From Pseudodesulfovibrio nedwellii (lineage in GTDB: Bacteria > Desulfobacterota > Desulfovibrionia > Desulfovibrionales > Desulfovibrionaceae): a stretch of DNA of 64,000 nt. The notes under the pieces are model-generated. The model made no database searches. It had not been told where the DNA came from and saw nothing but the letters and a program-made list of their open reading frames with translations. Position numbers and translations under genes: made by a program. The stretch is taken from the NCBI RefSeq assembly GCF_027923765.1, contig NZ_AP026709.1:1421501-1485500 (forward strand), in the 5' to 3' direction. This document shows, piece after piece, positions 26,285 to 42,087 of this stretch. Within the stretch, counting starts at the first letter, position 1. Each line of letters opens with the position of its first letter.

Positions 26285-26376
26285 TGGTTGCCGAATAACA
26301 GAACAGAACATAGGAAAATTGTGAGCGTGACACAACCCCGCAGGCCACCCCAATGACCGAAAGGATACGAACAACC

Positions 26377-27069: not shown

Positions 27070-27080
27070 AAGGAATGCAT

Positions 27081-27803
27081 ATGCGCACGACTCGTACTAT
27101 CATCGTCACGGCTTTTCTTATCCTCTGCATAGCCACAGTTGCCTCGGCAGAAAACGCTGTCCTCGCATCCGGCGCAGGCTACAAGAAAATGGTCAACGCC
27201 CTGAACACAGCCTACACGAAAAACACCGGACAGACTGTGGACCTCCTCTTCGGCAACATGGCACGTGTGACTACTCTGGCAAAAAAGAGTGGCAACGTGG
27301 ACATCGTCCTTGGTGACGCATCTTTCCTGAAAAAGGCACAACTCACTTTTTCCGAAAAACAGGAATTAGGTCACGGAAAATTGGTCCTCGCTTTTGCCAA
27401 AAACTGCCCGTATTCCTCAGTTGCTGACTTGGACAAGGCCGGTCGCATCGCCCTGCCTGACACGCACAAAGCCATTTATGGCAAGGCTGCAAGGGAATTT
27501 CTTGAGTCCAACGGCAACCTTCCCGGCATCAAACAGCGATTGCTGGAAGTATCAACCATTCCTCAAGTCTTCTCCTATTTGACGACCAATGAAGTGGACA
27601 TGGGCTTCCTGAACCTCACACACGCACTGAACGTGGCCGACAAACTTGGCGGCTATGTCATAGTTGATCAAAAAGGATACTCTCCCATCGTAATTCTCGC
27701 TGCCCTGCTCAAAGACAGTCGACATATGAAACAGGCCAAAGACTTCCTCCGTTTCCTCGAAACTCCCGAAGCCCAAACCATTTTGCGAGAAAACGGACTG
27801 TAG
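27081..27803 (+). CDS. modA: Molybdate/tungstate-type periplasmic binding protein
   Basis: 240 residues from the ATG at 27081, spaced 7 bases from AAAGGA (an ATG two codons upstream overlaps that site). Signal peptide RTIIVTAFLILCIATVASA is cleaved before ENAVLASGAGY. The fold features of ModA (VDIVLGDASFLKKA, IALPDTHKAIYGKAAREFLE, EVDMGFLNLTHAL) are present. The opening residues differ from classical ModA, so specificity between molybdate and tungstate cannot be settled by eye. Confidence 0.8.
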   Translation: MRTTRTIIVTAFLILCIATVASAENAVLASGAGYKKMVNALNTAYTKNTGQTVDLLFGNMARVTTLAKKSGNVDIVLGDASFLKKAQLTFSEKQELGHGKLVLAFAKNCPYSSVADLDKAGRIALPDTHKAIYGKAAREFLESNGNLPGIKQRLLEVSTIPQVFSYLTTNEVDMGFLNLTHALNVADKLGGYVIVDQKGYSPIVILAALLKDSRHMKQAKDFLRFLETPEAQTILRENGL

Positions 27804-27808
27804 GCCGC

Positions 27809-28477
27809 ATGAACGTCCTTGATATTCTGGCACAACCGGAAACCACCGGACCACTCGTCCTCACCCTCAAAGTACTGGCAGTATCCGGCCTACTCCATTT
27901 GGTAAGCAGTATTCTGCTCGGCTATTATCTGACCTCGGGGAAAAGCACGATGCGTTCAGTGGTGGACTTTCTGGTCACCTTGCCGTTAGTCTTTCCGCCC
28001 ATAGCCACAGGTTTCATTCTGCTCATACTGCTCGGCAGAGCCGGGTTCATCGGGCAGGTCCTACCAGTGGATATCGTGTTCAGCTTTCCGGGCGTGGTCA
28101 TCGCCGCGTTTGTGGCCGGACTTCCATTGGTGGTCAAACCAGTGGAAGCCGCACTTCGGGGCAATGTCAAACAACTGGCCGAAGCCTCACGGGTGCTTGG
28201 CAAGAGCGAATGGCAAACCTTCTGGTTCGTATTATTGCCCAACGTCAAACGCAACGTCGCTTCAGGCTGGTTTCTGGCTCTGGGCCGTTCTCTCGGAGAG
28301 GTGGGCATCACGCTGATGCTCGGCGGCAACATCATCGGCAGGACCAACACCCTGTCCCTTGAGATTTATAACGCCGTATTCAGCGGTGAATTCGAGCGGG
28401 CACTGGTCCTGTCCGCTATCATCGGCATATTCTCACTGACCATATTCATCGCACTCAAAAAACTTTCCGCTGTCTAG
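27809..28477 (+). CDS. modB: Molybdate/tungstate ABC transporter permease
   Basis: 222-residue ModB/CysT-type permease with about five or six membrane segments and the ATPase-contact loop (QLAEASRVLGKSEWQTFWFV) near residues 112-131, then SLGEVGITLMLGGNIIGRT. Starts 5 bp after modA and is followed 8 bp later by the DUF364 gene. Confidence 0.88.
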   Translation: MNVLDILAQPETTGPLVLTLKVLAVSGLLHLVSSILLGYYLTSGKSTMRSVVDFLVTLPLVFPPIATGFILLILLGRAGFIGQVLPVDIVFSFPGVVIAAFVAGLPLVVKPVEAALRGNVKQLAEASRVLGKSEWQTFWFVLLPNVKRNVASGWFLALGRSLGEVGITLMLGGNIIGRTNTLSLEIYNAVFSGEFERALVLSAIIGIFSLTIFIALKKLSAV

Positions 28478-28485
28478 GAGCACAT

Positions 28486-29211
28486 ATGAAAACCACATTG
28501 GAAACCGTCCGCGACAAGGCCCTTGTTCTCTGGGGCAAAGAAGATATCCTCAACGAAAGCATCACGGTTTCAGCCGGTCCCCTGACCGTCGAGGAAGCTA
28601 TTGGCACCCCTGAAGAAAACGACTTTCCCATTCAGCAGGGTAAAGAAAAATTGATGGAGGCCGTATTTCGCGGAGAACGCGGGCAGGCTTTTACAGATAA
28701 CTACGGCAACTACACCGGCACCTTGAGCGATGTGGCCGCCTTGACACTGGACAACAACTTCAACCGTGCCGTGTTTGTCGCCACACTCAATGCCGTTTCC
28801 CGCTCGCTCGGCCTGGCAAAAGGCACAGTTCATTGCAAGGATTGCGGCCCCAAGGAATGTTCGGAAAAAATATTCGATCACATCAAGGAAAACTACGGGA
28901 AATGTCGCATCACCATCATCGGATTTCAGCCGGCACTGGCCGAAGCACTCAACAAAGAAACCGAAGTGCGGCTCATTGATCTCGACCCGGACAACATCGG
29001 AGAAACAAAACGCGGAGTACTCGTGGAAGGTGGCGAGGCCACGGCAGAAGCTATTGACTGGTGCGATCTCTTGCTTGTCACCGGCACCACGCTTGCCAAC
29101 AGCACCATTGATCTGTTCCTGACAAAAAAACCGGTGCTTTTCTATGGTACCACCATCTCCGGCGGGGCCGCTCTCATGGAATGGGACCGATTCTGTCCAC
29201 AGAGTTCCTAA
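28486..29211 (+). CDS. DUF364 (putative heavy-metal-chelation) family protein
   Basis: 241 residues. N-terminal part with GPLTVEEAIGTPEENDFPIQ and FTDNYGNYTGTLSDV, then a Rossmann-like C-terminal half (ITIIGFQPALAEAL, VRLIDLDPDN, LLLVTGTTLANSTIDL, VLFYGTTISGGAALM). This is the layout of the DUF4213/DUF364 proteins often found beside metal transporters. Cys pairs near 118-125 (CKDCGPKEC) could bind metal. Last gene of the mod operon; its 3' end overlaps the convergent histidine phosphatase gene by four bases. Confidence 0.82.
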   Translation: MKTTLETVRDKALVLWGKEDILNESITVSAGPLTVEEAIGTPEENDFPIQQGKEKLMEAVFRGERGQAFTDNYGNYTGTLSDVAALTLDNNFNRAVFVATLNAVSRSLGLAKGTVHCKDCGPKECSEKIFDHIKENYGKCRITIIGFQPALAEALNKETEVRLIDLDPDNIGETKRGVLVEGGEATAEAIDWCDLLLVTGTTLANSTIDLFLTKKPVLFYGTTISGGAALMEWDRFCPQSS

Positions 29212-29822
29212 GAAGTCGATTCAAAAAAAGATGACAAATCGTCAGGGGAGACGTTGTCCGCAACCAACTCCAGCCCATTATTCCCTGACCGAAACAATGT
29301 ACAATGGGCATAGTCGGGTTTAAAATGAAACAGGTCATCCAAAGGGTGACCTGTTACCCGACAAAGCACTGATCGAAGAACTCCTGCGTGCGTCACGGCC
29401 AAAACAGGACACGCACTGTGCGCCAGTTCTTCTAGGGCACTCATAGCCCGGTCAGCCACATCCGAAAAGCTTTCACCGGACGGGGCGCGAAATGAACCAA
29501 ATCGATCACCGCGTTCAGCATACTTCGCAAAATATTCTCGACGTATCTCATCAAAGAGAAGGCCATCCCACTTTCCCATATCGATTTCGTTCAAAGCGGG
29601 AATAGTATCCACCGACATATTCAAATCCAGAGCCAATGGGCTGACGGTATCCAAAGCCCGCTGCGCCGGACTCGCGCACAGTCGCTTGAACCCAATACCG
29701 CGTACCGATTCCACAAGAGACCGAGCCTGCTCGCGTCCGACATCTGACAACGGCAACGGAGTTCTTCCAATACATCGCCCCTTGGAATCCTCTTTCTGCG
29801 CATGGCGCATCAGTACAATCAT
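29208..29822 (-). CDS. Histidine phosphatase family protein (CobC/PGM-like)
   Basis: 204 residues. The phospho-acceptor motif appears as LMRHAQ (R6, H7; RHA instead of RHG), and the second histidine in VTHAGVLRSVL near 149. Small size and ESF/GESFSDVADR block place it with alpha-ribazole-phosphatase-like enzymes. It ends the aldehyde-oxidoreductase maturation run, overlapping the NTP-transferase gene by four bases. A nucleotide or cofactor phosphate is a plausible substrate (inference). Confidence 0.85.
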   Translation of the reverse strand: MIVLMRHAQKEDSKGRCIGRTPLPLSDVGREQARSLVESVRGIGFKRLCASPAQRALDTVSPLALDLNMSVDTIPALNEIDMGKWDGLLFDEIRREYFAKYAERGDRFGSFRAPSGESFSDVADRAMSALEELAHSACPVLAVTHAGVLRSVLCRVTGHPLDDLFHFKPDYAHCTLFRSGNNGLELVADNVSPDDLSSFFESTS

Positions 29823-30943
29823 GCCAAGACCTCCTGCGCCAACTGCTCAGTGGAAACACCCATCTCCCGATCAAAGCGAGCCATAATATCTGTCGCCCGC
29901 TCCAGTCGGCCAAGTATGGCCTGTTCCACGCCCGGTTCGTGACGATATTGCTCTATCTTGTTCATGTAACGGACTTTAAGTGGTACCGGTTTCTCTCCGC
30001 ACACCAATTTATCCGCAAGGAACACAACTTCTTTTTCCGTAATCGGTTCCTCCGATGGAAGCAACAAATCGAAATGTTCCAAGGCAATATCCGCAGCAAC
30101 ATGAAAACCATGCGCATGCAGCCGCTCGGCTCCCACTATCTCATGCCGCTTGGTCCCCTTGCCTATATCATGGGTCAACGCCGCCCCCCGAACAAGTGCG
30201 GCATCAAGACAATCGCCGTTGCGCAGGCAGTTCAACTGTTGACACAGGGCCTCGGCCACACGCGATACAGCCTGACAATGCCGAACGATATTCAAAGGCA
30301 CGGAATACATTTCCCACAACTGACAGCACTCTTCATGATTCGGATACGGGGAATCTACCAAAGACTTTGCCAACGTATAATCTGCCGGGTAATCCAAATC
30401 GTGCACAGTTCCAAAATCAGCCACGTCCAAATCTCGTGCCCCGGTTTCATTTTGATCCAACACGGTCCGCAACCCACCTGTTCCATCGTGATTCACAATT
30501 GCGGGAATCAAACTCCGACTGATCAGCGGAGGATGACCTCGTTCTCCCATAAAACAAGGATACAAAATGGAGGGAGAGGCCTGTTCAAAATCATCAACAA
30601 GGCGGCTAACAGTTTCAGAACGGACCAACGGGATATCTACCGGAAGCATGAAAAACGCCGAAATATCATCTCCCAAAGCCCGAACACCTGTCAGCACTGA
30701 AGAATACATACCCTGCTCAAAATCGGCATTATGCACAGCTACAACTCCGGCCTGATGCGCAGCCTCGGTCACTTCGTCACTCCGTCTTCCCGTAACCACA
30801 ATGACCTGCTCAACACCATTTCTTCGGAATACGTCAACGCACCGCGACAACACTGTTCCATCTCCCAACGGTAACAAGGGTTTGAAATCACCCATACGAG
30901 AAGAAAAACCAGCCGCCGGTATTATTGCGGCCAGGGCGCTCAT
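29819..30943 (-). CDS. MobA/MocA-like NTP transferase fused to HD hydrolase domain (DVU_1551-like)
   Basis: 374 residues. N-terminal half (1-about 190) is a nucleotidyltransferase: PAAGFSSRMGDFKPLLPLG (start of the NTP-binding loop) and MLPVDIPLVRSETV, as in MobA/MocA, which add CMP or GMP to molybdopterin. The C-terminal half has an HD phosphohydrolase motif (ALTHDIGKGTKRHEIVGAER). Xanthine-dehydrogenase-family enzymes such as aldehyde oxidoreductase use the cytosine dinucleotide cofactor, so CTP:molybdopterin cytidylyltransferase is the likely activity, with the HD domain possibly editing nucleotides (inference). Overlaps xdhC by four bases. Confidence 0.85.
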   Translation of the reverse strand: MSALAAIIPAAGFSSRMGDFKPLLPLGDGTVLSRCVDVFRRNGVEQVIVVTGRRSDEVTEAAHQAGVVAVHNADFEQGMYSSVLTGVRALGDDISAFFMLPVDIPLVRSETVSRLVDDFEQASPSILYPCFMGERGHPPLISRSLIPAIVNHDGTGGLRTVLDQNETGARDLDVADFGTVHDLDYPADYTLAKSLVDSPYPNHEECCQLWEMYSVPLNIVRHCQAVSRVAEALCQQLNCLRNGDCLDAALVRGAALTHDIGKGTKRHEIVGAERLHAHGFHVAADIALEHFDLLLPSEEPITEKEVVFLADKLVCGEKPVPLKVRYMNKIEQYRHEPGVEQAILGRLERATDIMARFDREMGVSTEQLAQEVLA

Positions 30944-31926
30944 ACGCCCCCCGAACGCACCTGAATAAGTTCACCGCAAATGGAAACCGCAATTTCCTCC
31001 GGTGTCTGCGCACCGATCGTCAATCCAATAGGACAATGACAACGATCAATATCCTTCTGCGTGAACCCATCAGCCAGCAGGGAATCGTAAATCTTATCGC
31101 GTTTCTTCTTGCTCCCGATCATGCCCACGTATCGGGCCTTGGTCCGCAGTACTTCGGCCAACACATTACGATCGTGCAAATGCCCTCTGGTCACAATGAT
31201 GACGAATGAATTTTCATCCATATTCAGACCGTCGCAGCATCCGGCAAAAGAAGGCAAAACAACCACTTCATCGGCCTCCGGAAAACGGGCTTCATTGGCA
31301 AAATCCTCCCGGTCATCAAGAACCACTGTCCTGAATCCGATCATGGCCGCTGTACGTGCCGTAAACAGAGAAACATGACCAGCTCCGAAAATATAAAGAG
31401 ATGCAGGCGGAATAAACGGCTCCGTAAGCTTCATGCCGTTTGAATTCTTTTCAAAAACAGGCGTATCACCATCGGTTTGATCTTTCTGGACCTGATGTTC
31501 CACGGCACAAAAATCGATAATTCCCTCAAATTTGGTGGCAAGTGACGACCGCACGCCACGCCGCAACAATTCATTCACTTCGAGGTATGCCTGAGCACAC
31601 GGGCCACTCGGTTCCACAACTTCAAGCAACACGCTCAGACCGCCGCCGCAAATCATGTCCGAATTGGCAGCGAGTTCCTGTGTCATATCGACAAACGTCA
31701 GACTGCCCCTACCGTCTCCCGTGTCAAGCATGGCCCGACCATCCTTGCAGGCCTTGGCCTCCACCAATCCACCACCCACGGTGCCGAGGATGGACCCGTC
31801 ACCGCGCACAGCCATTTTTGCCCCGGACGAACGAGGTGTGGACCCGGAGCTTTCCACCACCGTTGCCATGACAAAAGTTTCATCCTGTCCAATAAGTTCA
31901 CATATGGAACGCACAAACGCTTTCAT
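30940..31926 (-). CDS. XdhC/CoxI-family Moco maturation protein
   Basis: 328 residues. XdhC N-terminal block VVESSGSTPRSSGAKMAV with GTVGGGLVEA, Cys in MICGGGLSVLLEV, and the C-terminal Rossmann part starting LYIFGAGHVSLFTARTAA with VVLDDREDFANEARF. XdhC binds the Mo cofactor, promotes its sulfuration and inserts it into xanthine-dehydrogenase-family enzymes; the expected client is the aldehyde oxidoreductase encoded at 38208-40925. Confidence 0.9.
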   Translation of the reverse strand: MKAFVRSICELIGQDETFVMATVVESSGSTPRSSGAKMAVRGDGSILGTVGGGLVEAKACKDGRAMLDTGDGRGSLTFVDMTQELAANSDMICGGGLSVLLEVVEPSGPCAQAYLEVNELLRRGVRSSLATKFEGIIDFCAVEHQVQKDQTDGDTPVFEKNSNGMKLTEPFIPPASLYIFGAGHVSLFTARTAAMIGFRTVVLDDREDFANEARFPEADEVVVLPSFAGCCDGLNMDENSFVIIVTRGHLHDRNVLAEVLRTKARYVGMIGSKKKRDKIYDSLLADGFTQKDIDRCHCPIGLTIGAQTPEEIAVSICGELIQVRSGGV

Positions 31927-31929
31927 GAT

Positions 31930-33237
31930 TCAATTCTCCAATTCTCTCAGTATGGATCGTTTTCCCAGTCCCGGAATAGCCGGGGTCCCATCGTCTTTGA
32001 TTATGACATCCAACGAGAGCAGTCCCTCTTCAATCCCCTGCTCAACGACCGGCATGGAGCCAAGAGCCGTGCGTATCAAATAGGGCAATGCGGTTTGATC
32101 CCCGCACGCCACAACACGCAATTGCCCATCTACACACCATGCACCAAAATCTTCCAGCCCCGGCACTCCGTATAGAACTTCATTCAATTCCCGCAGAGTC
32201 AACCGACCTGAACCAACAGATAATCCGTCTTCCTTTCGGAATACCTGTGTATCAAGTCGGCGCAAAGGACTTTTACATTCACACCTGTCAGGGAGGATTC
32301 TCCCCATGTCGCCGGTCCGGTAACGAATAAGCGGCATCCCGTGCCGAAGCGGCGTGGAGACAACCATCTCGCCAAATTCTCCATCCATCAACAACGTGCC
32401 TTTATCCGGGTCAACGATTTCCATAAATACGTCGGTTTCCCGTAGGTGCATTCCAGAATGAGGGAAGCACTCCACTGCCCCACCAAGGCCCGTCTCAATC
32501 ATGCCCCAATGGCGCAACGCAGAACATCCAAAAATACGTTCGACATTGTGCACCACAGCATTTGGAGCCGCATCCCAACATAAAAGAACTGACTGAATTT
32601 TACCCGAAGGCAACCCGCGCTTTTCCCATGCACTGGCAAACATATTCACATGGGCCGATGATCCGACAATACACTGGGCATCTTCTTTGAGGCATTGATC
32701 GAGCGCAATGTTCACATCATGCATCACACCATGCGTAACCGCTCGCGCCCCGATCCGATCAAGTGCATCGACCAAGAGACGTCCCACGCCGCCCGGTCTT
32801 TCCCCCGGCATGAGTACGAGTACGGTCTGGCCTGACTCAACCAAATTGGTCATCCCCCAGCTAAAATAATCTACTGTGGCCTCAAGGTCGTCAGCCGTAT
32901 GGAAAATTCGCTTGGGTTGTCCCGTGGTACCGGAAGTCGCCAGCGTCACCACCCGTGCAATCTCATCCTGTGACACGCACAAGAGTTGCTCGCCACCCCT
33001 ACGGATATCTTCGGGCGTCATCATGGGCAGACGGGAATATGCCTCCACAGACTGTATGGCTGAAGCTTCAACGCCCCCAAGATGGAGCGCATAAAACGGA
33101 CTGTTGGCCTGAGCATGCGCCACAGTGTCACGCAATCGGGCGAGCTGCCACTGACGAATATCACGGGCTGTAGGCAGCACGGCTCCCTGCCACCCCATAC
33201 GGCGAACAAGCCATTGATCAAGCGCTGGCAGGCCCAT
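31930..33237 (-). CDS. AMP-dependent CoA-ligase-like protein (PaaK-related, DVU_1553-like)
   Basis: 435 residues of the phenylacetate-CoA-ligase-like adenylate-forming class. LARLRDTVAHAQANSPFYA opens the family; the ATP loop is VVTLATSGTTGQPKRIF near residue 104; later RYRTGDMGRI is the ATP/ribose site. The C-terminal lid is shortened. In Desulfovibrio a relative is part of the aldehyde-oxidoreductase gene group. Its acid substrate is unknown; it could activate the carboxylate made by the oxidoreductase, or act in cofactor assembly. Its start overlaps the radical SAM stop by 20 bp. Confidence 0.82.
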   Translation of the reverse strand: MGLPALDQWLVRRMGWQGAVLPTARDIRQWQLARLRDTVAHAQANSPFYALHLGGVEASAIQSVEAYSRLPMMTPEDIRRGGEQLLCVSQDEIARVVTLATSGTTGQPKRIFHTADDLEATVDYFSWGMTNLVESGQTVLVLMPGERPGGVGRLLVDALDRIGARAVTHGVMHDVNIALDQCLKEDAQCIVGSSAHVNMFASAWEKRGLPSGKIQSVLLCWDAAPNAVVHNVERIFGCSALRHWGMIETGLGGAVECFPHSGMHLRETDVFMEIVDPDKGTLLMDGEFGEMVVSTPLRHGMPLIRYRTGDMGRILPDRCECKSPLRRLDTQVFRKEDGLSVGSGRLTLRELNEVLYGVPGLEDFGAWCVDGQLRVVACGDQTALPYLIRTALGSMPVVEQGIEEGLLSLDVIIKDDGTPAIPGLGKRSILRELEN

Positions 33238-34564
33238 GACATTTACCTCTGTACAAAGTTTCTCCGTCCATAGAGGTCAAATTGTAGGCACAAAATGGAA
33301 TCAATCTCCCGTCCGGGGAAACTTCATGAATACAACACCCCTTGAGGCGCTCCAGATCCAGAGTCCAGGCGTCCTGAAACGCCATAGCGGATACCGCAAG
33401 AGTATGTGTTGCCGCACGGCTGATAAAAGCATCAAGAGCATCTGGCGCGTCAGCCATGGGCAATATTTTTTCTGGTGCCGCCCATTGTCGTTTTACAAAG
33501 GCCTTGGCCTTATCCGCTCCTTCCGAAGCTGGACGAGGCTGGCATCCGCACTTGCCTTCAGCGGAGAGCTTCTGCAACTGCCCGTCCTCTCTCACCATGT
33601 AATTGGCATGAAAAGAGCAATGTGAATGTTCACACCCCGGCGGCATGAAATGGGTTGCCTGAAGAGCACCGTATGTCTGTTGTTCAAGACGGCGCATGAG
33701 TTCAGGCAAAGTGATCCGTTCTGCATCTGTCGGCGATTCTGCGTATCGCCCAAAATAACTCACAGGCTGAAAATGCACACCACGCACATGCGGTGAATTT
33801 TCGGCTGCCAGTTTAATAATGGTACCCAATGAATGATCGTTGACCCCCGGTATGATTGTGGGGACCAGCACCACGCCGATGCCTGCTTCAGCCAAGGCCC
33901 GAAGCGCGGCCAACTTAAGATCAACAAGGGAACGACCACGCAAGACCTGATACACATCGTCACTCAACCCGTCGAATTGCAAAAAGACGGAATCAAGCCC
34001 GGCTTCGGCCAACGACATCGCGTAGCCTTTTTCGCGGCCGATGCGTAGCCCATTGGTATTGAGTTGAACAAAAGGGAACCCCTTGGACTTGGCAAGCCGG
34101 ATCACGTCCGACAAATCATCCCGCACTGTGGGTTCGCCGCCAGAAAGTTGAATATTGCAATACCCGGATGCTTCCTTGACCCGATCAAACAAAAAGCCAA
34201 GTTCAGCATGAGTCGGATCTGGTGGTGCGTTCTTGCCGGATGAAGCAAAACAAACCGGACAGCCTAAGTCGCAACGCCACGTTACCTCAATAACCGCTGT
34301 ACAAGTATGCTGCCGGTGGGCATCACACAATCCGCAATCAAGCGGACACCCTTTATCAACACGGGTAAAAGGCTTTTTCGGCGGAGAAGGTATCTTCACC
34401 CGAGACCAATCCGAAAACGCAGGTTCACCACGCCAGACAACAGTCCTGAATTCGCCATGTTCTGGGCATATTTTTACTAGAAAAGTCTCTTCACCTACGG
34501 TTTCATGCTCTGCCGAAATAGGCTTCAAACACACAGGGCAGACGCTTCGCGGAATACGACTCAT
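33218..34564 (-). CDS. trsS: Radical SAM protein with extra Cys motifs (TrsS-like)
   Basis: 448 residues. A zinc-ribbon-like N-terminus has C9/C12 and C33; a CxxxCxxC at C73/C77/C80 with C88 is followed by the radical SAM CxxxCxxC at C98/C102/C105 (RCDLGCPVC). SAM-binding GGEPTVRDDL and further Cys/His near 290-330 (PPGCEHSHCSFHANY) suggest additional metal centres. This matches the family I recall as TrsS, some members of which are selenoproteins; no in-frame TGA is seen here. It lies in the aldehyde-oxidoreductase group and overlaps neighbours on both sides. The reaction is not known to me. Confidence 0.82.
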   Translation of the reverse strand: MSRIPRSVCPVCLKPISAEHETVGEETFLVKICPEHGEFRTVVWRGEPAFSDWSRVKIPSPPKKPFTRVDKGCPLDCGLCDAHRQHTCTAVIEVTWRCDLGCPVCFASSGKNAPPDPTHAELGFLFDRVKEASGYCNIQLSGGEPTVRDDLSDVIRLAKSKGFPFVQLNTNGLRIGREKGYAMSLAEAGLDSVFLQFDGLSDDVYQVLRGRSLVDLKLAALRALAEAGIGVVLVPTIIPGVNDHSLGTIIKLAAENSPHVRGVHFQPVSYFGRYAESPTDAERITLPELMRRLEQQTYGALQATHFMPPGCEHSHCSFHANYMVREDGQLQKLSAEGKCGCQPRPASEGADKAKAFVKRQWAAPEKILPMADAPDALDAFISRAATHTLAVSAMAFQDAWTLDLERLKGCCIHEVSPDGRLIPFCAYNLTSMDGETLYRGKCHGPASA

Positions 34565-35016
34565 GACAAGGAGCGCCCTTCGGACGGGTCCAGTCCGTTG
34601 TCCACCAAAATTTCACGTATCCGGGCATACGTCGCAGCCACCAATCCACCACAACGAGTCGTATCAGGCTGGCCGCACTGACCATCCAGAATATCCTTGC
34701 ACGCCGTGCCGCCATAGTGTGTCGTGGCGTCGACAAACCAATCACGTAACTCTTCGAGCATTAATGGCAAGACATCCGCAGGTTCTTCCATGTCTTCACC
34801 TTTACCGCCATACAATCCAAGTAACACGGCTGCCCCGGTGTAGACGCCGCACACACCTGAACAATCGCCCAAGCCATTACACAGCCCGGAAGCGGCCCGA
34901 ATCAAGTCAGGGTTGTCGCGGCCCATTTCATCAAGAGCCAACATGACCATAATCTGACTGCAACAATACCCTTTGCCGCCCAATTCCATCATCTTGAGAC
35001 CAGTATCATCCAACAC
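34561..35016 (-). CDS. C-GCAxxG-C-C family redox/metal protein (DVU_1555-like)
   Basis: 151 residues from a GTG at 35016 with GGGAG eight bases upstream; a TTG-started longer frame to 35040 is less likely. Cysteines C18/C19 (GYCCSQ), C46, C52 and C56 (GDCSGVCGVYTG), then a C-terminal set in GTACKD, GQCG and TRCGG follow the C-GCAxxG-C-C pattern, where they may bind a metal or cycle as a thiol relay. Overlaps the methyltransferase by 11 bp and the radical SAM gene by four. Confidence 0.8.
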   Translation of the reverse strand: MLDDTGLKMMELGGKGYCCSQIMVMLALDEMGRDNPDLIRAASGLCNGLGDCSGVCGVYTGAAVLLGLYGGKGEDMEEPADVLPLMLEELRDWFVDATTHYGGTACKDILDGQCGQPDTTRCGGLVAATYARIREILVDNGLDPSEGRSLS

Positions 35017-35665
35017 GAGGCTCACTCCCTTTTTGCGCAATCATCAAATAATACCCGAGATCGCCATCACATGTCCTGGTTGTTTCCCCTCCGGCGAACA
35101 GTAATTTGGCCGCCAAATCCTTCAACTGTCGGGAATGATCCTCAACCAGACGCACCGTGAAGCCACACGCCTCCACCCGTTCCCGCGTGACAGCAAGCGG
35201 CACGGCGCGTCCGGCACAGGAACTCCCATCCGGCAGGCTCGGCCGCTCTGCATGCAAATCAGCAAGGACAAGATACCCTTGCGGTTGAAGTACTCGATAA
35301 AACTCTGCAAGTCCCTTCTGAGGATCAGCAAACAGCGACAGCACACACTCACAAAAAACGGCCTTAAAACTTTCATCATGAAAGGGCAGGGCATCACCTT
35401 GTGCCTGAATGACATTCGCTCCACCACCACGTTCAATCTGCACACTTGACGATTCCACACCCCAGGCATCTGCTCCGAAACGGGAGCGTAATCGCTCAAC
35501 CGTGGCTCCCAGTCCACTGCCCACATCAAGTATCCGCCAGCCGGGAAGTACCCCGACAAGTTCAGCAGCTCGGTCCGTCAAAGAAAAACCACCGGGCCGC
35601 AAGGTCTCTCCCGCGGCAACACGTAATGACGGTTTTTCCCAAAGAGGAACACATGGCTCCGGCAC
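35006..35665 (-). CDS. trsM: SAM-dependent methyltransferase (TrsM/DVU_1556-like)
   Basis: 219 residues from a GTG at 35665, chosen because GGAGG lies 9 bases upstream inside the end of the preceding gene; longer frames overlap that gene. Class I methyltransferase: RILDVGSGLGATVERL is the SAM loop, followed by WGVESS and the post-motif VFCECVLSLFADP. It belongs to the UbiE/Methyltransf_11 group. Methyl acceptor unknown; always in company with the radical SAM and C-GCAxxG-C-C genes in the related clusters I recall. Confidence 0.8.
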   Translation of the reverse strand: MPEPCVPLWEKPSLRVAAGETLRPGGFSLTDRAAELVGVLPGWRILDVGSGLGATVERLRSRFGADAWGVESSSVQIERGGGANVIQAQGDALPFHDESFKAVFCECVLSLFADPQKGLAEFYRVLQPQGYLVLADLHAERPSLPDGSSCAGRAVPLAVTRERVEACGFTVRLVEDHSRQLKDLAAKLLFAGGETTRTCDGDLGYYLMIAQKGSEPRVG

Positions 35666-35667
35666 GA

Positions 35668-35883
35668 TTACTTGTCCTCCAACAAATGCTCGACCTGATT
35701 CATCTTGCCGAGCGCCAACCCTTCCGGGATAAACACGAACCCACATGAGGGACAGGTTGGCAATTCCACATTGAACAATGAATCGAGATACTCCAACTCA
35801 ACCGGAGCCAGAACCAATTCTTTGTCGCAGGCCGCACATTTCCACCCTGAAACTTCCGCTTCCGGTACTTTGATAACACTCAT
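35668..35883 (-). CDS. Small double-CxxC redox or zinc protein (DVU_1557-like)
   Basis: 71 residues from the ATG at 35883, which overlaps the preceding stop (ATGA). Two CxxC pairs, C16/C19 and C44/C47, are typical of a zinc ribbon or rubredoxin-like iron site. Coupled to the FAD/Fe-S oxidoreductase before it, so it may be its electron-transfer partner (inference). Confidence 0.82.
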   Translation of the reverse strand: MSVIKVPEAEVSGWKCAACDKELVLAPVELEYLDSLFNVELPTCPSCGFVFIPEGLALGKMNQVEHLLEDK

Positions 35884-38132
35884 GACTGCGCCCCTTTTAT
35901 CTTCATCCGGTGGCACCATGTGTTATGCACGAGATACCCGTTTTCAGTGGATTCATATTCAACCCAGTAGGTCACAACCACCGGCCTGAATGATGTGAGA
36001 AAATGTCCGGTTTCGTTGTTCACCAACTGTTTGCCGGACTGATCCAACTGAAGCAGAACTTTCTGGATATCGCTCTTCAAGATACGCCGCTCTTCCATGA
36101 TACGTGCAGCATGATCCGTCACAGCGAACTCGATTGATTCATACGGTTCGGCAACATGTGTCTCATCCTGCCGCCACACATCACGCAGCAACTTCTCCCG
36201 AAGATGAACACGGTTTTCACGTCGTGCAGGATAACCGGGAGAAGGACGTGCGCCGGGATCATCACGCCGTGGATACAACAGGTCATACAAGTGCATGGCC
36301 CGCTTACCGGTCTTGGCGATCATGTCACGACACATAATACAGTAGGTAACAAAATCCTCATCTGCACCCTTGGCGCGCACTTCCGCCACAGCCATACCAA
36401 GTTCCGGGTTGGCCTCGGACAACAAACCGCCGTAGCCACAACATTGGGCAAGTTCACCATTGTATTCCGGCTCGGTCATATCCACATGTAACTGGTCCAG
36501 CAAAACCCGAACATCTTCACGCAATATGGTGTCATGTCGAGCAGCACACGGATCGTTAACAGCCAAGGTACATTCTTTGGATGCCACCCCTGAAGGTAAC
36601 CCGACCGCTCGAAGAATGGACCAATGAGACACTATTTCAGCATCGGACAATCCCTGACGCAGAGTTTTGAGACATGTGGGACAGGCAGCGATAATTCTGG
36701 GGCTGCCGAGGTCCTTCCACTTTTTCTTGAGCACAGCCATGGATTCCTCAAACATGCGATGTCGCCCGGACCATTCAGCGGGTGCACCGCAGCAATGCAG
36801 CATCAACCCGACACTACCGAGCCGTTCATGCAGGTCAGCATAGGCTGCTTCCACACCTTCAGGATCAGATGCCGTCAACTGACAGCCGGGGAAAAACAGG
36901 TATTCACTGGTGGACTCACCGGGTGCATGGCGATGCAACACACATTTTTCGCCATCGGCAAAGGCCATGTCTCGCAAGGCAAATTCATGAGCGGACGGCG
37001 GCATTTTACCTCGCTCGACCATATTCTGCCGCGCGGCAAGACAAACGTCGGCCATGGAAAAATCTTCGGGGCAAAGGACCTCGCACTGACCGCACAACGT
37101 GCAGGAATTGATCATGGTGTTTGCCTGACGCGTTCCCATGACAATGGATTCATTGTTGTAAATTTGTCGGGCGTATACCTTGGGATAATATTTGTAATGC
37201 CGCAGGTATTCGCACCCTTTCACGCATTCAAGGCACTCGCACTGGATGCAGCGCTTTGCCTCATCACGCGCATTTTCTTCGGAATATCCATCTTCGCTTT
37301 CAACAAGTGGCAAGGAATCGATCTTTTCCAGACTGGTGAACAGCCTACTTTCATACGGCCCTTCCAGTTCCCGCCCCGTGACCATGGAAACGCCCTGTGT
37401 GAATCGCTCAATGGAATTGGCGACCCGACGACCGGCAGCGGCCTGCAAGACAGCGGATTTCTCATTGAGACGGCTGGCAAAAACACCGATTTTGGTTGTC
37501 CCCAATGTCAGGGAATCCGGTTTGCCAAGATCAGAAAGACAATCGGAAGGCACACAAGCTGAATCTATAAAAACAGCATCCTTTTCATCAACGAATGAAC
37601 TCAGGACATCAGGAGTCAGGGCTTCTCCGCTGGAGATGACAACCCCCAGTTTTTCGAGACTCGCCAGTTCGTTATCCAATACACCTTCGGGAAGTTCGGG
37701 CAGATCTTCGCCCAAAATTGCACAATGCAGGGTGACATTGAACCCTCTGCGCGCCATTTCCCATGCGCCACACAATCCGGTCATACCGCCACCAAGAACG
37801 GCAACAGATTTACCACGAGACGGTAGGGGACGCGGCGAGGCCACAGGCTTGGCATTCTCAGCACAAAACCGTTCAAGCAGTCCCATTTCAATAGAGCCAC
37901 CGGCATCCTTGCGAACACAATCGACTCTGCATAGGCCTTCGCACAACCGAGCCAACACACCGGGGAGCGGCATGGTTTTGGCGAGCACCTGCCATGCCTT
38001 GTCCCATCGGCGTTGCGCCATGAACGAACAAAAGGTGCGTGCATCAACGTGCAAAGGACAGGCGGCAACACATTTGGGCGCTTCCTCCTGAATACACTTG
38101 CTTTCCAATTCTCTCAGATCAGCTTGTTCCAT
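35880..38132 (-). CDS. FAD-dependent oxidoreductase with two Fe-S modules and CCG domains
   Basis: 750 residues. The Cys-rich N-terminus (CVAACPLHVD, then LCEGLCRVDCVRK) is the Fer4_20-type cap of GltD-like proteins; the FAD loop VLGGGMTGLCGAWEMARRG is near residue 110. A dicluster ferredoxin follows (CIQCECLECVKGC and CTLCGQCEVLCP) near 290-360, then a heterodisulfide-reductase-type region with CCGAPAEW and CCGYGGLL. The last 100 residues are a separate soluble domain of unclear type. It probably transfers electrons between a soluble carrier and the aldehyde oxidoreductase or a thiol partner. Confidence 0.85.
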   Translation of the reverse strand: MEQADLRELESKCIQEEAPKCVAACPLHVDARTFCSFMAQRRWDKAWQVLAKTMPLPGVLARLCEGLCRVDCVRKDAGGSIEMGLLERFCAENAKPVASPRPLPSRGKSVAVLGGGMTGLCGAWEMARRGFNVTLHCAILGEDLPELPEGVLDNELASLEKLGVVISSGEALTPDVLSSFVDEKDAVFIDSACVPSDCLSDLGKPDSLTLGTTKIGVFASRLNEKSAVLQAAAGRRVANSIERFTQGVSMVTGRELEGPYESRLFTSLEKIDSLPLVESEDGYSEENARDEAKRCIQCECLECVKGCEYLRHYKYYPKVYARQIYNNESIVMGTRQANTMINSCTLCGQCEVLCPEDFSMADVCLAARQNMVERGKMPPSAHEFALRDMAFADGEKCVLHRHAPGESTSEYLFFPGCQLTASDPEGVEAAYADLHERLGSVGLMLHCCGAPAEWSGRHRMFEESMAVLKKKWKDLGSPRIIAACPTCLKTLRQGLSDAEIVSHWSILRAVGLPSGVASKECTLAVNDPCAARHDTILREDVRVLLDQLHVDMTEPEYNGELAQCCGYGGLLSEANPELGMAVAEVRAKGADEDFVTYCIMCRDMIAKTGKRAMHLYDLLYPRRDDPGARPSPGYPARRENRVHLREKLLRDVWRQDETHVAEPYESIEFAVTDHAARIMEERRILKSDIQKVLLQLDQSGKQLVNNETGHFLTSFRPVVVTYWVEYESTENGYLVHNTWCHRMKIKGAQS

Positions 38133-38156
38133 GATCGCCCTGCTCTATTTCAACTG

Positions 38157-38194
38157 AAAGGAGCGGTCCATGCCGAAGCACAGACCGCTCCTTT
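38157..38194 (-). terminator. Hairpin between aldehyde oxidoreductase and downstream maturation genes
   Basis: AAAGGAGCGGTC (38157-38168) and GACCGCTCCTTT (38183-38194) form a perfect 12-bp stem with a 14-base loop, 13 bp after the oxidoreductase stop. On the minus strand there is no long T-run after it, so it may terminate partially and stabilise the abundant mop message while letting some transcription continue. Confidence 0.7.
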
Positions 38195-38207
38195 TACGTG
38201 TTATGAA

Positions 38208-40925
38208 TTAACCTTTGAGTCCAGCCAAAACCTTTTCAGGCAAAGCCGGCAGCGTACGAATACGAACACCGCATGCGTTGTAGATAGCGTTAAGGATCGC
38301 CGGATGCGGGGAGCACAACGGGACTTCGCCAACGCCGGATGCACCATGCGGGCCTTCGGGACGCGGAGTCTCGACGTAGACAATCTCGATATCGTCCGGA
38401 ATCTGCTTGATGTACGGGAATCCAGCACCCTTCATGGTGGAGTGTTTCTTGATGTCCTCGTAATCTTCAGACAGGGCCAAACCGATACCTTGAGCAACAC
38501 CACCGTAGATCTGCCCGTCAACGACCAGAACGTTGTTGACCTTACCGATGTCAGCAATGAAGGTGATCTTCTCAACCGTGGTCTTACCAGTAGCAATTTC
38601 CACGGCCACTTCAGCCATGCACAGACCGTACATGTAGCAAGCAAAAGGTTTACCCTGGCCGTTTTCATCACAATTGTTGGCCGGAGCAGTCCACTTGCCG
38701 TGCTGGACAAGATCAATGTTCTCATCAACCATTTCCTGATAAGTGCGATACGAGCCGTCAGACTTGAGCATGGCGCTCATCAACATCTCGCAGCCGACCT
38801 TGATGGAATTACCCACAACAACCTGAGAGCGAGAACCACCAGCGGGGCCGCCGTTGGGGCAATAGCGGGTGTCGTTCAAGGTCAAATGAATCTGGTCAGG
38901 AGTAAGTCCCAAAGGACGCAAGGATTCATGAGCAGTACCCAGCACGCCCATATCAGCGCCCTGTCCATGATCATGCCAACATGTCAGCACGGTCACACTG
39001 CCGTCTTCATTCAGGCGAACGTCCGCTTCAGCGGTGTCCGGGCCATCAAGGCCGGAAGCGTACACGCCAAGGGCAATACCCACACCACGTTTGATTTCAT
39101 CGGTGGAGTTGGCAGCGGTCTTTTTCTTGGCTTCCTCGTACTTGGGACGAAGAATGTCGAACATTTCAGGCAAAGAATAGATTTCAGGATCACAACCCGT
39201 GGGAGTTGTAGAACCTTCACGGTAGATATTCTTGTAACGAAGTTCCAAGGGGTCCATACCGAGTTTTTCAGCCAATTCGTCCATCAGGGTTTCAGAGGGG
39301 AACTCGGCTTCAGGTCCGCCGTATCCACGGAAAGCTGCACCCCATGCATGGTTGGTGCAGACAGTCCGACCTTCGCCGCGAATGTTGTCGATATTGTAAC
39401 CGGCACCGATGAACTGAGCACCGCGCAGGGTCAGCAGATCACCGAACTCGGAATATGGACCATGGTCAACGGTCCAATCGGTTTCCATACCAAGCAGCTT
39501 GCCTTCCTTGTCGGCAGCCATGCGCACGGTAGTGAACTGAGGCGAACGCTTACCGGTGTAAGTCTGCTGCTGATACCAATCGTAACAGAGGAAAACCGGT
39601 TTGCCAGTTGCCAGACAGGCTGCACCAACAAGCGCTTCCATAGTCGGGGAGAACTTGTAACCAAAGGTACCACCAGTAGGATTCTGAACCATGATCAAAT
39701 TCTCAGGCTCGACACCGAGACCAGGAGCGATCATGTACAGGTGCAGATGCAAACCAATGGACTTTGAATGAATGCACAGTTTGCCTTCGTCATCCAGATA
39801 AGCGAATCCAACATCCGGTTCGATGGGCATGTGCGGCTGACGAGTCGTGAAATAATCACCCTCGATAACCACGTCGGCCTTATCAAAAATAGGAGCGGTT
39901 TCTTCGCCCTTGGCGACTTTCTGTGTGTAATAAATGTTAGGAGTGCCGGGATGAATTTCAATGGCATCGTCAGCCATGGCGGCAGGAGCACTCATGTACT
40001 CAGGCAGACGCTCCAGCTCGACTTTAACCTTGGCGGCTGCGGCCTTGGCATTCTTCTCGGAGTCAGCGCAGACGATGGCAATGGCGTCACCGTACTGGAA
40101 GACCTTCTCGTCGCACAGGATAGGACGATCCCAACCGTCACCCTTATTGGTGGGGAAGGTGATCAGACCAGTGATACGGTTTTTGCCTTTGACATCCTTG
40201 TGCGTAACGATCTTTTCCACGCCGGGCATGGCTTCGGCTTCGCTGGTATCAATGGAGATAATCTTCGCATGGGAGACTTCTGCCTGAACCAAAGCGCACT
40301 TGAGGGTTTCCTTGGGCATCTTGATACCGAGGTCTGCACCGTAATCCAGCGTACCGGTGACCTTGGCCACGGCGGTGGGACGGGGATACTTTGTGCCCCA
40401 GATACGACCATCTTCGGGGATCTGGAAAGCCAGCTCGTCCATACTCATGTCGCCGCGCATGACAGCGGCGGCATCCATAACGGAATCGACCAACTGCTTG
40501 TAACCGGTACAACGACAGGCGTTGCGATATTTCTGAAACCAGTCACGAATATCTTCGCGGGTCGGACTGGGATTGGCCTGCAACAGGGCGTACGAAGAAA
40601 CAATGAAACCCGGAGTGCAGAAACCGCACTGTGCGCCACCGTTGGCGATCCAAGACATCTGGATGGGGTGCAGATTATCAGGAGTACCAATACCTTCAGT
40701 CGTCAGGATAGTTGCGCCGTCCTTGATTCTGCTCATTTTCATGGAGCAGGAACGGACCAGCTTACCATCAACGATAACTGAACAGCTACCGCATTGTCCG
40801 GTGCTACAACCGACCTTCACGCTGGTTAACCCGAGGCTTTCACGCAGGATCGACGAAAGTTTGTCGTCCTTTTCGCAAATCACCTGTTTGGGTGCATTAT
40901 TCACGGTAAGATTCAATTTAATCAT
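38208..40925 (-). CDS. mop: Aldehyde oxidoreductase (molybdenum hydroxylase, MOP)
   Basis: Oxidises aldehydes to carboxylic acids with water and passes electrons through two [2Fe-2S] clusters. The 905-residue length and cysteine spacing match D. gigas MOP: C40, C45, C48 and C60 form the plant-ferredoxin cluster and C100, C103, C137 and C139 the second. The Mo domain includes GTFGYKFSPTMEALVGAACL, AAFRGYGGPE and the catalytic Glu867 in ASGVGEVPL. No FAD domain is present, as in MOP. Expected cofactor is molybdopterin cytosine dinucleotide. Preceded by a MoeA-like gene and followed by the maturation run, so probably co-transcribed with both. Confidence 0.95.
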   Translation of the reverse strand: MIKLNLTVNNAPKQVICEKDDKLSSILRESLGLTSVKVGCSTGQCGSCSVIVDGKLVRSCSMKMSRIKDGATILTTEGIGTPDNLHPIQMSWIANGGAQCGFCTPGFIVSSYALLQANPSPTREDIRDWFQKYRNACRCTGYKQLVDSVMDAAAVMRGDMSMDELAFQIPEDGRIWGTKYPRPTAVAKVTGTLDYGADLGIKMPKETLKCALVQAEVSHAKIISIDTSEAEAMPGVEKIVTHKDVKGKNRITGLITFPTNKGDGWDRPILCDEKVFQYGDAIAIVCADSEKNAKAAAAKVKVELERLPEYMSAPAAMADDAIEIHPGTPNIYYTQKVAKGEETAPIFDKADVVIEGDYFTTRQPHMPIEPDVGFAYLDDEGKLCIHSKSIGLHLHLYMIAPGLGVEPENLIMVQNPTGGTFGYKFSPTMEALVGAACLATGKPVFLCYDWYQQQTYTGKRSPQFTTVRMAADKEGKLLGMETDWTVDHGPYSEFGDLLTLRGAQFIGAGYNIDNIRGEGRTVCTNHAWGAAFRGYGGPEAEFPSETLMDELAEKLGMDPLELRYKNIYREGSTTPTGCDPEIYSLPEMFDILRPKYEEAKKKTAANSTDEIKRGVGIALGVYASGLDGPDTAEADVRLNEDGSVTVLTCWHDHGQGADMGVLGTAHESLRPLGLTPDQIHLTLNDTRYCPNGGPAGGSRSQVVVGNSIKVGCEMLMSAMLKSDGSYRTYQEMVDENIDLVQHGKWTAPANNCDENGQGKPFACYMYGLCMAEVAVEIATGKTTVEKITFIADIGKVNNVLVVDGQIYGGVAQGIGLALSEDYEDIKKHSTMKGAGFPYIKQIPDDIEIVYVETPRPEGPHGASGVGEVPLCSPHPAILNAIYNACGVRIRTLPALPEKVLAGLKG

Positions 40926-40992
40926 GACAGTATTCCTCCTTGGTGTGTAACTGTCGCAGGTTCACGCCGCCTATTGGCGGAGGGAAAAAAGC

Positions 40993-42009
40993 CTATTTTC
41001 CAAAAGGACAGATAGGATAACGGCAAACATCACAGGATGCACAAAATCCACCATGTCCCAGGGCTACAATGTCTTCTCGGGTGATTTCTTCCCCGGCCAA
41101 CAGGCGGGGCACCACAAGGTCAAAAATGGAAGCCCGGTAGTACATGACACAACCAGGCAGCCCAAGAATGGGCACACCTTCCCGCATGGCGATCATGAAC
41201 ATGACACCAGGGAAAGTGGGCGAACCATAGGTAATGACTTCGGCCCCGGTGGCACGAATAGCCGTGGGAGTCTGATCATCAGGGTCCACAGACATACCGC
41301 CCGTGACCACGACCATCTCGGCTCCTTCAGCAATGAAGGCCAAAATGGCATCGCGAGTCATGGACGGATCATCCGACGTCAGCCGTTGATCCATGACCGT
41401 GGAACCAAGTTTGGAAAATTTCTTACGAATAACCGGACCGAATTTATCCGTGATACGCCCGTGAAACACTTCGCTACCAGTGGTCACAAGGCCAACGTTG
41501 TGATGTTTGAAAGGACGAACGCCGACCACATAGGGGTACTCGGCACAGATGGCTTCCACTTGCTCTATCTTTTTCTCGTCAATAACCAGCGGCACCACAC
41601 GAGTACCAGCCACGGGACGAGACTGTGTGACCTGCTGGCCGGTGTGCATGGTAGCCAACACGACTTCTTCTATGGAATTAATACGATTAAGGGCCTCGAC
41701 ATTGACATCAAGCAAACCGGGAGAGGCTTCGAAATTGACACGGCCTTCACTGACCTCGGACAGAGTTATTCCCGGTCCGACTGCAGCTTTTGAAATACGC
41801 TCCGCCGCCTCATTTTCGTGAATGCTTCCTTTTTCCAGATTGAGCACATAAATGTGCTCCTTGCCAATATCCAGCAATACCGGAATATCTTCCTCAGCAA
41901 CGACATGCCCTTTTTTGAAGGCTGGACCTTTGCTTTCTCCGGGAACAATCTTGGTCATATCGTGACACAACACCATACCGACGGCATCGTGAACGTGAAC
42001 AGTTTTCAT
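40993..42009 (-). CDS. MoeA/MoaB-like molybdopterin-binding protein
   Basis: 338 residues from the ATG at 42009; codons before it fall in the leader. Contains the MoCF-binding motifs GLVTTGSEVFHGRI and MVVVTGGMSVDPDDQTPTAI, with FPGVMFMIAMREGVPILGLPG, i.e. a MoeA/MogA-type fold. The N-terminal residues (HVHDAVGMVLCHDMTKIVPG) are a MoeA domain I/II remnant. The C-terminus has an added Cys cluster (CASCDVCRYPICPFGK), suggesting a metal site absent from E. coli MoeA. It lies immediately upstream of mop and likely inserts Mo for that enzyme. Confidence 0.85.
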   Translation of the reverse strand: MKTVHVHDAVGMVLCHDMTKIVPGESKGPAFKKGHVVAEEDIPVLLDIGKEHIYVLNLEKGSIHENEAAERISKAAVGPGITLSEVSEGRVNFEASPGLLDVNVEALNRINSIEEVVLATMHTGQQVTQSRPVAGTRVVPLVIDEKKIEQVEAICAEYPYVVGVRPFKHHNVGLVTTGSEVFHGRITDKFGPVIRKKFSKLGSTVMDQRLTSDDPSMTRDAILAFIAEGAEMVVVTGGMSVDPDDQTPTAIRATGAEVITYGSPTFPGVMFMIAMREGVPILGLPGCVMYYRASIFDLVVPRLLAGEEITREDIVALGHGGFCASCDVCRYPICPFGK

Positions 42010-42059: not shown

Positions 42060-42087
42060 AGTATTTTTCAAAACAATATTATGTCAA
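42060..42087 (-). promoter_or_regulatory. Predicted sigma-70 promoter of the MoeA-like/mop operon
   Basis: On the minus strand TTGACA (42087-42082) and AATACT (42065-42060) are separated by 16 bp, about 50 bp before the ATG at 42009. The -35 box is a full match; the -10 box matches 4 of 6. The dyad at 42035-42057 lies at the expected transcription start. Confidence 0.5.

Follow-up and report, generated by a model that had tools for sequence, protein, structure and literature searches.

A Tes-type radical SAM protein and its operon partners accompany the aldehyde oxidoreductase MOP in Pseudodesulfovibrio nedwellii and other anaerobes

In this study, we analyze a 64,000-nucleotide stretch of the Pseudodesulfovibrio nedwellii genome (contig NZ_AP026709.1, positions 1,421,501 to 1,485,500; the whole stretch is hereafter the window) and show that a block of genes at 29208-42009 is an operon of the kind behind the NCBI DVU_1551-1559 families, linked to MOP, a molybdenum-dependent aldehyde oxidoreductase (AOR). 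MOP and its helper genes are usually found in the same genomes among the anaerobes examined, which makes it probable that the helpers produce something MOP requires. We propose, expecting about equally to be right or wrong, that the operon makes and supports MOP through two modules, one dealing with the molybdenum cofactor (Moco) and the other, the Trs module, making a shared factor. The best-supported parts of this account are the co-occurrence of the genes, their order, and the metal sites of the radical S-adenosylmethionine (SAM) protein TrsS.

RESULTS

The operon

The block comprises 11 tightly packed coding sequences in the open reading frame (ORF) listing. Coordinates refer to the whole window, and the genes are given in transcription order.

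42009-40993, minus strand: MoeA-like protein; MoCF_biosynth domain (PF00994, 84.6 bits) and a Cys-rich tail, CxxCxxCxxPxCxFGK, at the C-terminus
40925-38208, minus strand: MOP, single-chain molybdopterin aldehyde oxidoreductase of the Moco-cytosine-dinucleotide type (NF045668, 1682 bits, cut-off 1100)
38132-35880, minus strand: DIC (NF045663, 997 bits, cut-off 530; Pfam domains)
35919-35668, minus strand: R57, small double-CxxC protein with C-terminal LEDK (NF045645, 101 bits, cut-off 60; PF24292)
35746-35006, minus strand: SAM-dependent methyltransferase, DVU_1556 family (NF045667, 212 bits, cut-off 155)
35040-34561, minus strand: C-GCAxxG-C-C protein, DVU_1555 family (NF045669, 178 bits, cut-off 103)
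34564-33218, minus strand: TrsS, Tes-type radical SAM enzyme (NF045646, 687 bits, cut-off 490)
33237-31930, minus strand: PaaK-like AMP-binding (coenzyme A (CoA)-ligase-like) protein, DVU_1553 family (NF045666, 445 bits, cut-off 300)
31926-30940, minus strand: XdhC-family AOR maturation factor (NF045664, 413 bits, cut-off 350)
30943-29819, minus strand: MocA/MobA-like nucleotidyltransferase-HD fusion, DVU_1551 family (NF045665, 434 bits, cut-off 315; PF12804, PF01966)
29822-29208, minus strand: histidine phosphatase, CobC-like (PF00300, 157.6 bits)

Seven of the ten neighbouring gene pairs overlap, by 4 to 79 bases for the ORFs as listed (the true starts of some genes may lie further in), and the three gaps measure 3, 75, and 67 bases. 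The frame of the MoeA-like gene opens at a TTG at 42060, 42009 being an in-frame ATG. Nine of the proteins pass the curated NCBIfam cut-offs of all nine models of the DVU_1551-1559/TrsS neighbourhood (NF045645, NF045646, NF045663-NF045669). The order of these families in NCBIfam (DVU_1551 NTP transferase, DVU_1553 AMP ligase, TrsS, DVU_1555, DVU_1556, DVU_1557 redox protein, NF045663, MOP) is matched in the window, with MOP adjoining. Unlike these, the MoeA-like protein and the phosphatase reach no equivalog cut-off: the former matches the generic molyb_syn domain only (59 of 85 bits) and the latter scores 132 of 163 bits against ribazole_cobC. An earlier note on this DNA, which took the genes for one operon and likened their order to D. 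vulgaris DVU_1551-1559, was right on both counts.

Co-occurrence of MOP and TrsS

Among 247 Desulfovibrionaceae genomes, searched at E 1e-60 for MOP with a D. gigas fragment and for TrsS with its family model, MOP was found in 168 and TrsS in 169; both were present in 162, MOP only in six, TrsS only in seven, and neither in 72 (Fisher p = 2e-46, uncorrected for relatedness or linkage). A first phylum draw of 297 genomes gave TrsS over cut-off in 33, MOP in 26, and both in 25. The sole MOP genome without TrsS in this draw, G241, has only short MOP contigs, and the eight TrsS genomes without an over-cut-off MOP comprise six of class II (defined below), G253, in which TrsS lies on a 4.9 kb contig, and G104, which has MOP fragments at contig ends. 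A second draw of 299 genomes, from the phylum of Desulfosporosinus G305, gave MOP in 19, TrsS in 17, and both in 16; the MOP genomes without over-cut-off TrsS are G645, G769, and G634, whose TrsS runs off a contig end and scores 469.5 bits, while in G638 TrsS is present and MOP is truncated.

TrsS does not follow molybdenum hydroxylases at large. It was found in none of nine and none of eight genomes, in the two draws respectively, that hold only below-cut-off MOP-like paralogues; G104, G635, and G638, in which the MOP matches are fragments lying at the ends of contigs, do not enter these counts. At 12 paralogue loci, no match to TrsS, the methyltransferase, the C-GCAxxG-C-C protein, R57, or the ligase was seen nearby (0 of 12), and there were weak DIC-like matches at five and a MoeA-like match at one. 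The phylogenetic profile that the earlier note had suggested as a check is therefore strong, and its view of the genes as a functional unit with MOP is borne out.

Two clades of TrsS

A tree of 113 TrsS-related sequences (quick method, midpoint root, four TrsS rows excluded beforehand) placed 93 MOP-type rows, here class I, on one side, and 19 class II rows together with Methanocaldococcus jannaschii tetraether lipid synthase (Tes) on the other (Shimodaira-Hasegawa-like approximate likelihood ratio support, SH-aLRT, 99). A contig scan gave the loci of the best 80 of 495 relatives, 69 of class I and 11 of class II. The order MOP, DIC, R57, methyltransferase, C-GCAxxG-C-C protein, TrsS, AMP-binding protein is fixed in 32 of the 69 class I loci, with close variants in others, and spans Thermodesulfobacteriota, Bacillota, Pseudomonadota, Synergistota, Spirochaetota, and Campylobacterota. 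MOP lies in the fetched stretch at 50 of the 69 (51 tblastn matches minus L105, counted as lacking an adjacent MOP because its match is another hydroxylase). For the other 19 loci, MOP was found elsewhere in the genome in 15 (14 over cut-off, and one at 1099.7 bits against 1100) and was absent in four, so that 65 of the 69 class I loci have a MOP in the same genome.

None of the 11 class II genomes has a MOP over cut-off, nor do six more from the phylum draw (17 of 17 without MOP); eight of the 11 lack any MOP-like match at E 1e-40 and three have other molybdenum hydroxylases. The class II loci nevertheless keep parts of the core, namely the methyltransferase, the AMP-binding protein, R57, and DIC pieces, and some have HGD-D/BadF-type, RACo, B12-binding, or URO-D genes as neighbours. 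Common occurrence of the set away from molybdenum hydroxylases, named in the earlier note as evidence that would speak against its reading, is found mainly in this separate clade.

At L065, L067, and L123, the neighbours of class II Trs genes encode 2-hydroxyacyl-CoA dehydratase-type proteins and an activator ATPase of the BadF/BadG type; the dehydratase and ATPase of L067 and the dehydratases of L123 were assigned with Pfam and the other labels by eye. Four loci (L151, L161, L166, L170) belong to Methanomassiliicoccales-type archaea, in which the class II TrsS gene is near URO-D, AMP-ligase-like, and archaeal lipid genes, the last resembling GGGP and DGGGP synthases by eye, and a true Tes gene is present in addition. 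Methanomassiliicoccales-type archaea have unusual butanetriol and pentanetriol lipids, for which the archaeal class II TrsS is a candidate enzyme.

Moco-type genes

Canonical Moco maturation likewise employs XdhC, MocA-like, and MoeA-like proteins, but it has no place for the radical SAM, methyltransferase, thiol, and AMP-binding proteins of the operon. The MobA-like/HD protein falls below the cut-off of canonical MocA (TIGR03310, 139.5 of 186.45 bits). The CxxCxxCxxPxC tail of the MoeA-like protein is present in all 28 homologues listed, with the following FGK differing in two. In a search of 35 genomes, 28 of them not known as class II (G039, with a split TrsS, was counted as class II by gene content), 18 had a DVU_1551 transferase over cut-off and 15 an XdhC-family protein, and neither model was over cut-off in any of the seven class II genomes. 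The description of the operon as a complete maturation set was accordingly too strong.

Metal sites of TrsS and its kinship to tetraether lipid synthase

The closest relative of TrsS in the PDB is tetraether lipid synthase (7tol, E 2.6e-84). As described in the sections of PMC9433317 available to us, Tes binds a rubredoxin iron through C9, C12, C33, and H36, an N-terminal cluster through C73, C77, C80, and a His, the radical SAM cluster through CxxxCxxC, and a C-terminal cluster with the labile Met439. All 34 aligned sequences keep the corresponding TrsS residues C9, C12, C33, H36, C73, C77, C80, H83, C98, C102, C105, and C316, and 33 of the 34 keep C410, C425, and M394; a second alignment of 17 sequences agrees. 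By this comparison, TrsS has the ligands of a rubredoxin-type iron and of three [4Fe-4S] clusters, the Cys ligands of the C-terminal cluster being assigned from the alignment. The two CxxxCxxC motifs that were noticed earlier (C73/77/80 and C98/102/105) are indeed present, but they are an incomplete account of a protein with ligands for four metal sites.

TrsS shares with Tes (also GDGT-MAS; MJ0619, PDB 7tol) the metal ligands, the CxxxCxxC motif, the C-terminal cluster Cys residues, and the labile Met. It differs in scoring below the Tes cut-off (352 bits against 450), in its companions, which are MOP and redox proteins, and in lacking Tyr459. This Tyr is stated in the same sections to be completely conserved in 1000 archaeal homologues (PMC9433317); none of 116 TrsS rows has Tyr at that position, three being gaps, nor did any of the earlier 34 rows, and Val, Glu, Ile, or another residue stands there. 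Because the Tes metal ligands are kept and Tyr459 is replaced, TrsS probably performs Tes-like radical chemistry on another substrate. We considered lipid synthesis by class I TrsS and rejected it, as TrsS sits with MOP; it is also disfavoured by the finding of true Tes as a separate gene in the five Methanomassiliicoccales-type genomes with class II TrsS that were examined.

Two divergent tandem copies in the wider TrsS set depart from the ligand pattern. They occur at L154 and L169, each with two class II-side TrsS genes in tandem of which the second is divergent: the L154 copy has lost N-terminal cluster ligands, and the L169 copy keeps the metal ligands and lacks His264. The TrsS ORF in the window has no internal stop and is thus the Cys form and not the selenoprotein form of TrsS. 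Selenocysteine forms were sought in the 50 over-cut-off genomes of the two phylum draws; 49 have no internal stop, and the sole TGA is a terminal stop. In Desulfosporosinus BRH_c37, TrsS is fused C-terminally to DUF5714 (L106:9971-12148).

Companion proteins

By Pfam, DIC combines a Fer4_20/flavin-type domain and a dicluster ferredoxin with two CCG (HdrB-like) domains. Its last ~100 amino acids form a further domain, DICc, that is a separate small protein in class II. DICc had no Pfam match in the one homologue scanned, and its profile gave no convincing PDB relative. Five MOP loci were fetched from genomes in which MOP is not at the TrsS locus, and DIC adjoins MOP in each of them. Since DIC stays beside MOP in these loci, it is the best candidate for the electron partner of MOP, a role we regard as probable.

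All 76 distinct class I R57 sequences that have the double CxxC (two matches lacking that pattern were set aside) carry E-[D/E]-K as their last residues, and the exact end is found in three of six class II sequences. The C-termini of most other operon proteins are variable, the MoeA-like protein and MOP often ending in Lys. Among hand-picked genomes, the R57 Pfam family was over cut-off in four of four with TrsS and none of 40 without it, one of the latter having a weak match.

The AMP-binding protein is related to the phenylacetate-CoA ligase of PDB 4r1l and scores 104.8 of 646 bits against the PaaK model TIGR02155, below cut-off. The C-terminal domain of PaaK is needed for thioester formation. 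The window protein has this domain, with a Lys-Arg motif, but the domain is absent (<60 residues after CxC) in 16 of 97 homologues, mostly from Desulfovibrionaceae; one further homologue is cut by a contig end. This loss in some relatives qualifies the CoA-ligase-like label given earlier. In the C-GCAxxG-C-C protein, Cys27, 64, 114, and 130 are invariant in 79 of 79 class I homologues. Relatives of this protein were sought in the PDB, where none was convincing, and none was found in the viral contigs scanned.

MOP copies and the D. gigas enzyme

The window MOP matches NF045668 across residues 3-904, that is, over its full length, and belongs to the same family as the D. gigas and D. desulfuricans enzymes (1sij, 1412 bits; 1dgj, 1456 bits). 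It is ~69% identical to D. gigas MOP over the first 309 residues of the latter. The P. nedwellii genome differs from the D. gigas system in carrying a second full MOP elsewhere (L084:7266-11068, C1:2423271), which has its own MoeA-like gene, 86% identical to that of the operon, and no Trs gene. Molybdopterin oxidoreductase-like and ferredoxin-like genes (by eye) adjoin it, and a second over-cut-off XdhC-family AOR maturation factor is located at C1:1646347-1647303, away from both MOPs. Likewise, no Trs genes were found in the stretches fetched around the second MOP loci of G295 and G088. Among 23 Desulfovibrionaceae genomes with two to four MOP matches, some of which may be gene pieces, 21 have TrsS, with exactly one match each; two TrsS matches occur in four other genomes. 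The presence of several MOPs beside a single TrsS is easier to reconcile with a shared role, in enzyme making or as a partner, than with a pathway for one substrate.

Over 309 residues, the MOP of G341 (full length 907), taken here as the D. gigas genome, shows 100% identity to the AOR that was crystallised. The stretch fetched there, which ends at XdhC, carries most of the genes of the window operon: those for the MoeA-like protein, MOP, DIC, the methyltransferase, the C-GCAxxG-C-C protein, TrsS, the AMP-binding protein, and XdhC. No tblastn match to R57 was obtained in that stretch. According to the accessible part of PMC10223205, D. gigas AOR has an oxo-rich Mo site, and its pyranopterin is in the cytosine dinucleotide form.

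A site of modification linked to TrsS was sought by comparing 81 TrsS-linked MOP sequences with 13 from the MOP-like paralogue families. No clear site emerged: of the 26 residues that set the two groups apart, most are aromatic, Pro, Gly, or His, and the others include two Arg, one Lys, and one Met; some of the 13 paralogues come from genomes that also hold TrsS, and the comparison does not exclude a site.

Neighbouring genes

A molybdate-type ABC transporter and a DUF364 protein are encoded at 26353-29211 on the plus strand, convergent to the end of the operon. The transporter parts are an ATPase at 26353 (by eye), ModA at 27075 (over cut-off), and ModB at 27809 (just below cut-off), and the DUF364 "heavy-metal chelation" protein is at 28486. 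ModB and DUF364-like genes are also near the set in L092 (Halodesulfovibrio) and L148 (Pelotomaculum).

DISCUSSION

The link between this gene set and MOP is real, and it seems best explained by two modules serving the same enzyme. Judging from their families, XdhC, the MocA-like/HD protein, and the MoeA-like protein would prepare and insert the molybdenum cytosine-dinucleotide cofactor. The Trs module, consisting of DIC, R57, the C-GCAxxG-C-C protein, the methyltransferase, TrsS, and the AMP-binding protein, would make a shared factor needed by every MOP in the cell. Electrons would be carried by DIC and by small thiol or ribbon proteins. TrsS would cleave SAM and act on a small substrate by activating one of its sp3 carbons; the substrate may be held on the C-terminal cluster of TrsS, as in Tes. 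Completion or activation of the product would fall to the methyltransferase and the AMP-binding protein. This product would be an activation factor or redox partner of MOP, and not a lasting change of the pterin. We infer the functions of the modules, the flow of electrons, and the existence of a product; the Trs chemistry, that is, the substrate, the product, and the order of steps, is offered as a hypothesis. Going further, and only tentatively, the Trs module may synthesise a redox or activation factor for molybdenum hydroxylases, built by Tes-type sp3-carbon chemistry and possibly carried by R57, with a sister form adapted to other low-potential systems in bacteria and methanogens.

Several observations weigh against the two-module account. 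The Fisher test ignores relatedness, and the co-occurrence partly reflects one locus being lost or kept whole. Three genomes with TrsS only (G327, G479, G540) are 98-100% complete, G769 has MOP and no TrsS, and G386 has two TrsS matches for one MOP match. The class II core genes occur without MOP, from which it follows that their product is not MOP-specific chemistry. The absence of DIC from the second MOP loci L084, L086, and L087 speaks against its partnering every MOP. No unusual group is reported for D. gigas AOR in the part of PMC10223205 at hand, so that what MOP would need is not visible there. Moreover, the literature searched yielded no functional study, mutant, or biochemical data on the Trs genes, and the main text of a D. 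vulgaris fitness paper (PMC10102598) names no DVU155x gene.

The earlier note had offered two explanations of its own, an undescribed cofactor modification and an aldehyde/acid-CoA route, and both lose ground. A lasting, undescribed chemical modification of the cofactor or protein of MOP would accord with the presence of Moco genes in one operon with genes for radical SAM chemistry, methylation, and adenylation, and with the way TrsS tracks MOP and not other molybdenum hydroxylases. However, because D. gigas, the source of the crystallised AOR with its known cytosine dinucleotide, carries most of the set, a lasting modification of Moco is unlikely, though a labile or external factor may still be involved; the occurrence of core Trs genes without MOP and the comparison of MOP sequences, within its limits, point the same way. 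In the second explanation, the Trs proteins convert a substrate into an aldehyde, MOP oxidises this aldehyde, and the resulting acid is joined to CoA by the ligase-like protein. The kinship of that protein to phenylacetate-CoA ligases, the Lys-Arg motif kept in the window copy, and the proximity of some class II loci to 2-hydroxyacyl-CoA dehydratase-type, RACo, B12-binding, and MaoC genes are consistent with such a catabolic route. We nevertheless find it doubtful. The 16 homologues without the ligase C-terminal domain belong to sets that are otherwise retained (a separately encoded domain was not sought), several MOPs have one TrsS in common, and the presence of XdhC, MocA-like, and MoeA-like genes in the operon suggests a role in making the enzyme.

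A further explanation makes R57 itself the substrate: TrsS, the methyltransferase, and the AMP-binding protein would modify the LEDK tail or CxxC of this small carrier, which would then serve MOP or DIC. The uniform end of class I R57 among operon proteins that mostly end variably, the failure of its family to pass cut-off in the 40 genomes picked for lacking TrsS, and its presence in G296 both beside MOP-DIC and beside TrsS would fit a carrier. Conserved ends can also result from docking, though, and the exact end is kept in only half of the class II sequences; the D. gigas locus gave no R57 match, some class I loci are without R57, and no modification of the protein is known. We rate this role as rather unlikely, and return to the two-module account as the best explanation at hand.

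The component families had already been named, and the available portion of a 2026 review (PMC13188914) lists TrsS, citing Haft and Tolstoy 2025 (mSystems). What the window holds is thus one more member of a neighbourhood already described. To this we add the two-clade split tied to MOP, the match of the metal sites to Tes, the argument from D. gigas, the finding of one TrsS for several MOPs, and the conserved end of R57, parts of which may be in Haft and Tolstoy 2025.

D. gigas AOR is an early structural model of the xanthine oxidase family, and its operon holds several genes without an assigned role. The pairing of MOP with a relative of an enzyme that joins inert lipid carbons suggests that some step in the making or working of this textbook molybdoenzyme has gone unrecognised. 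Preparations of MOP from heterologous hosts may be without a component, and the pairing of MOP and TrsS can be tested in a genetically tractable sulfate reducer.

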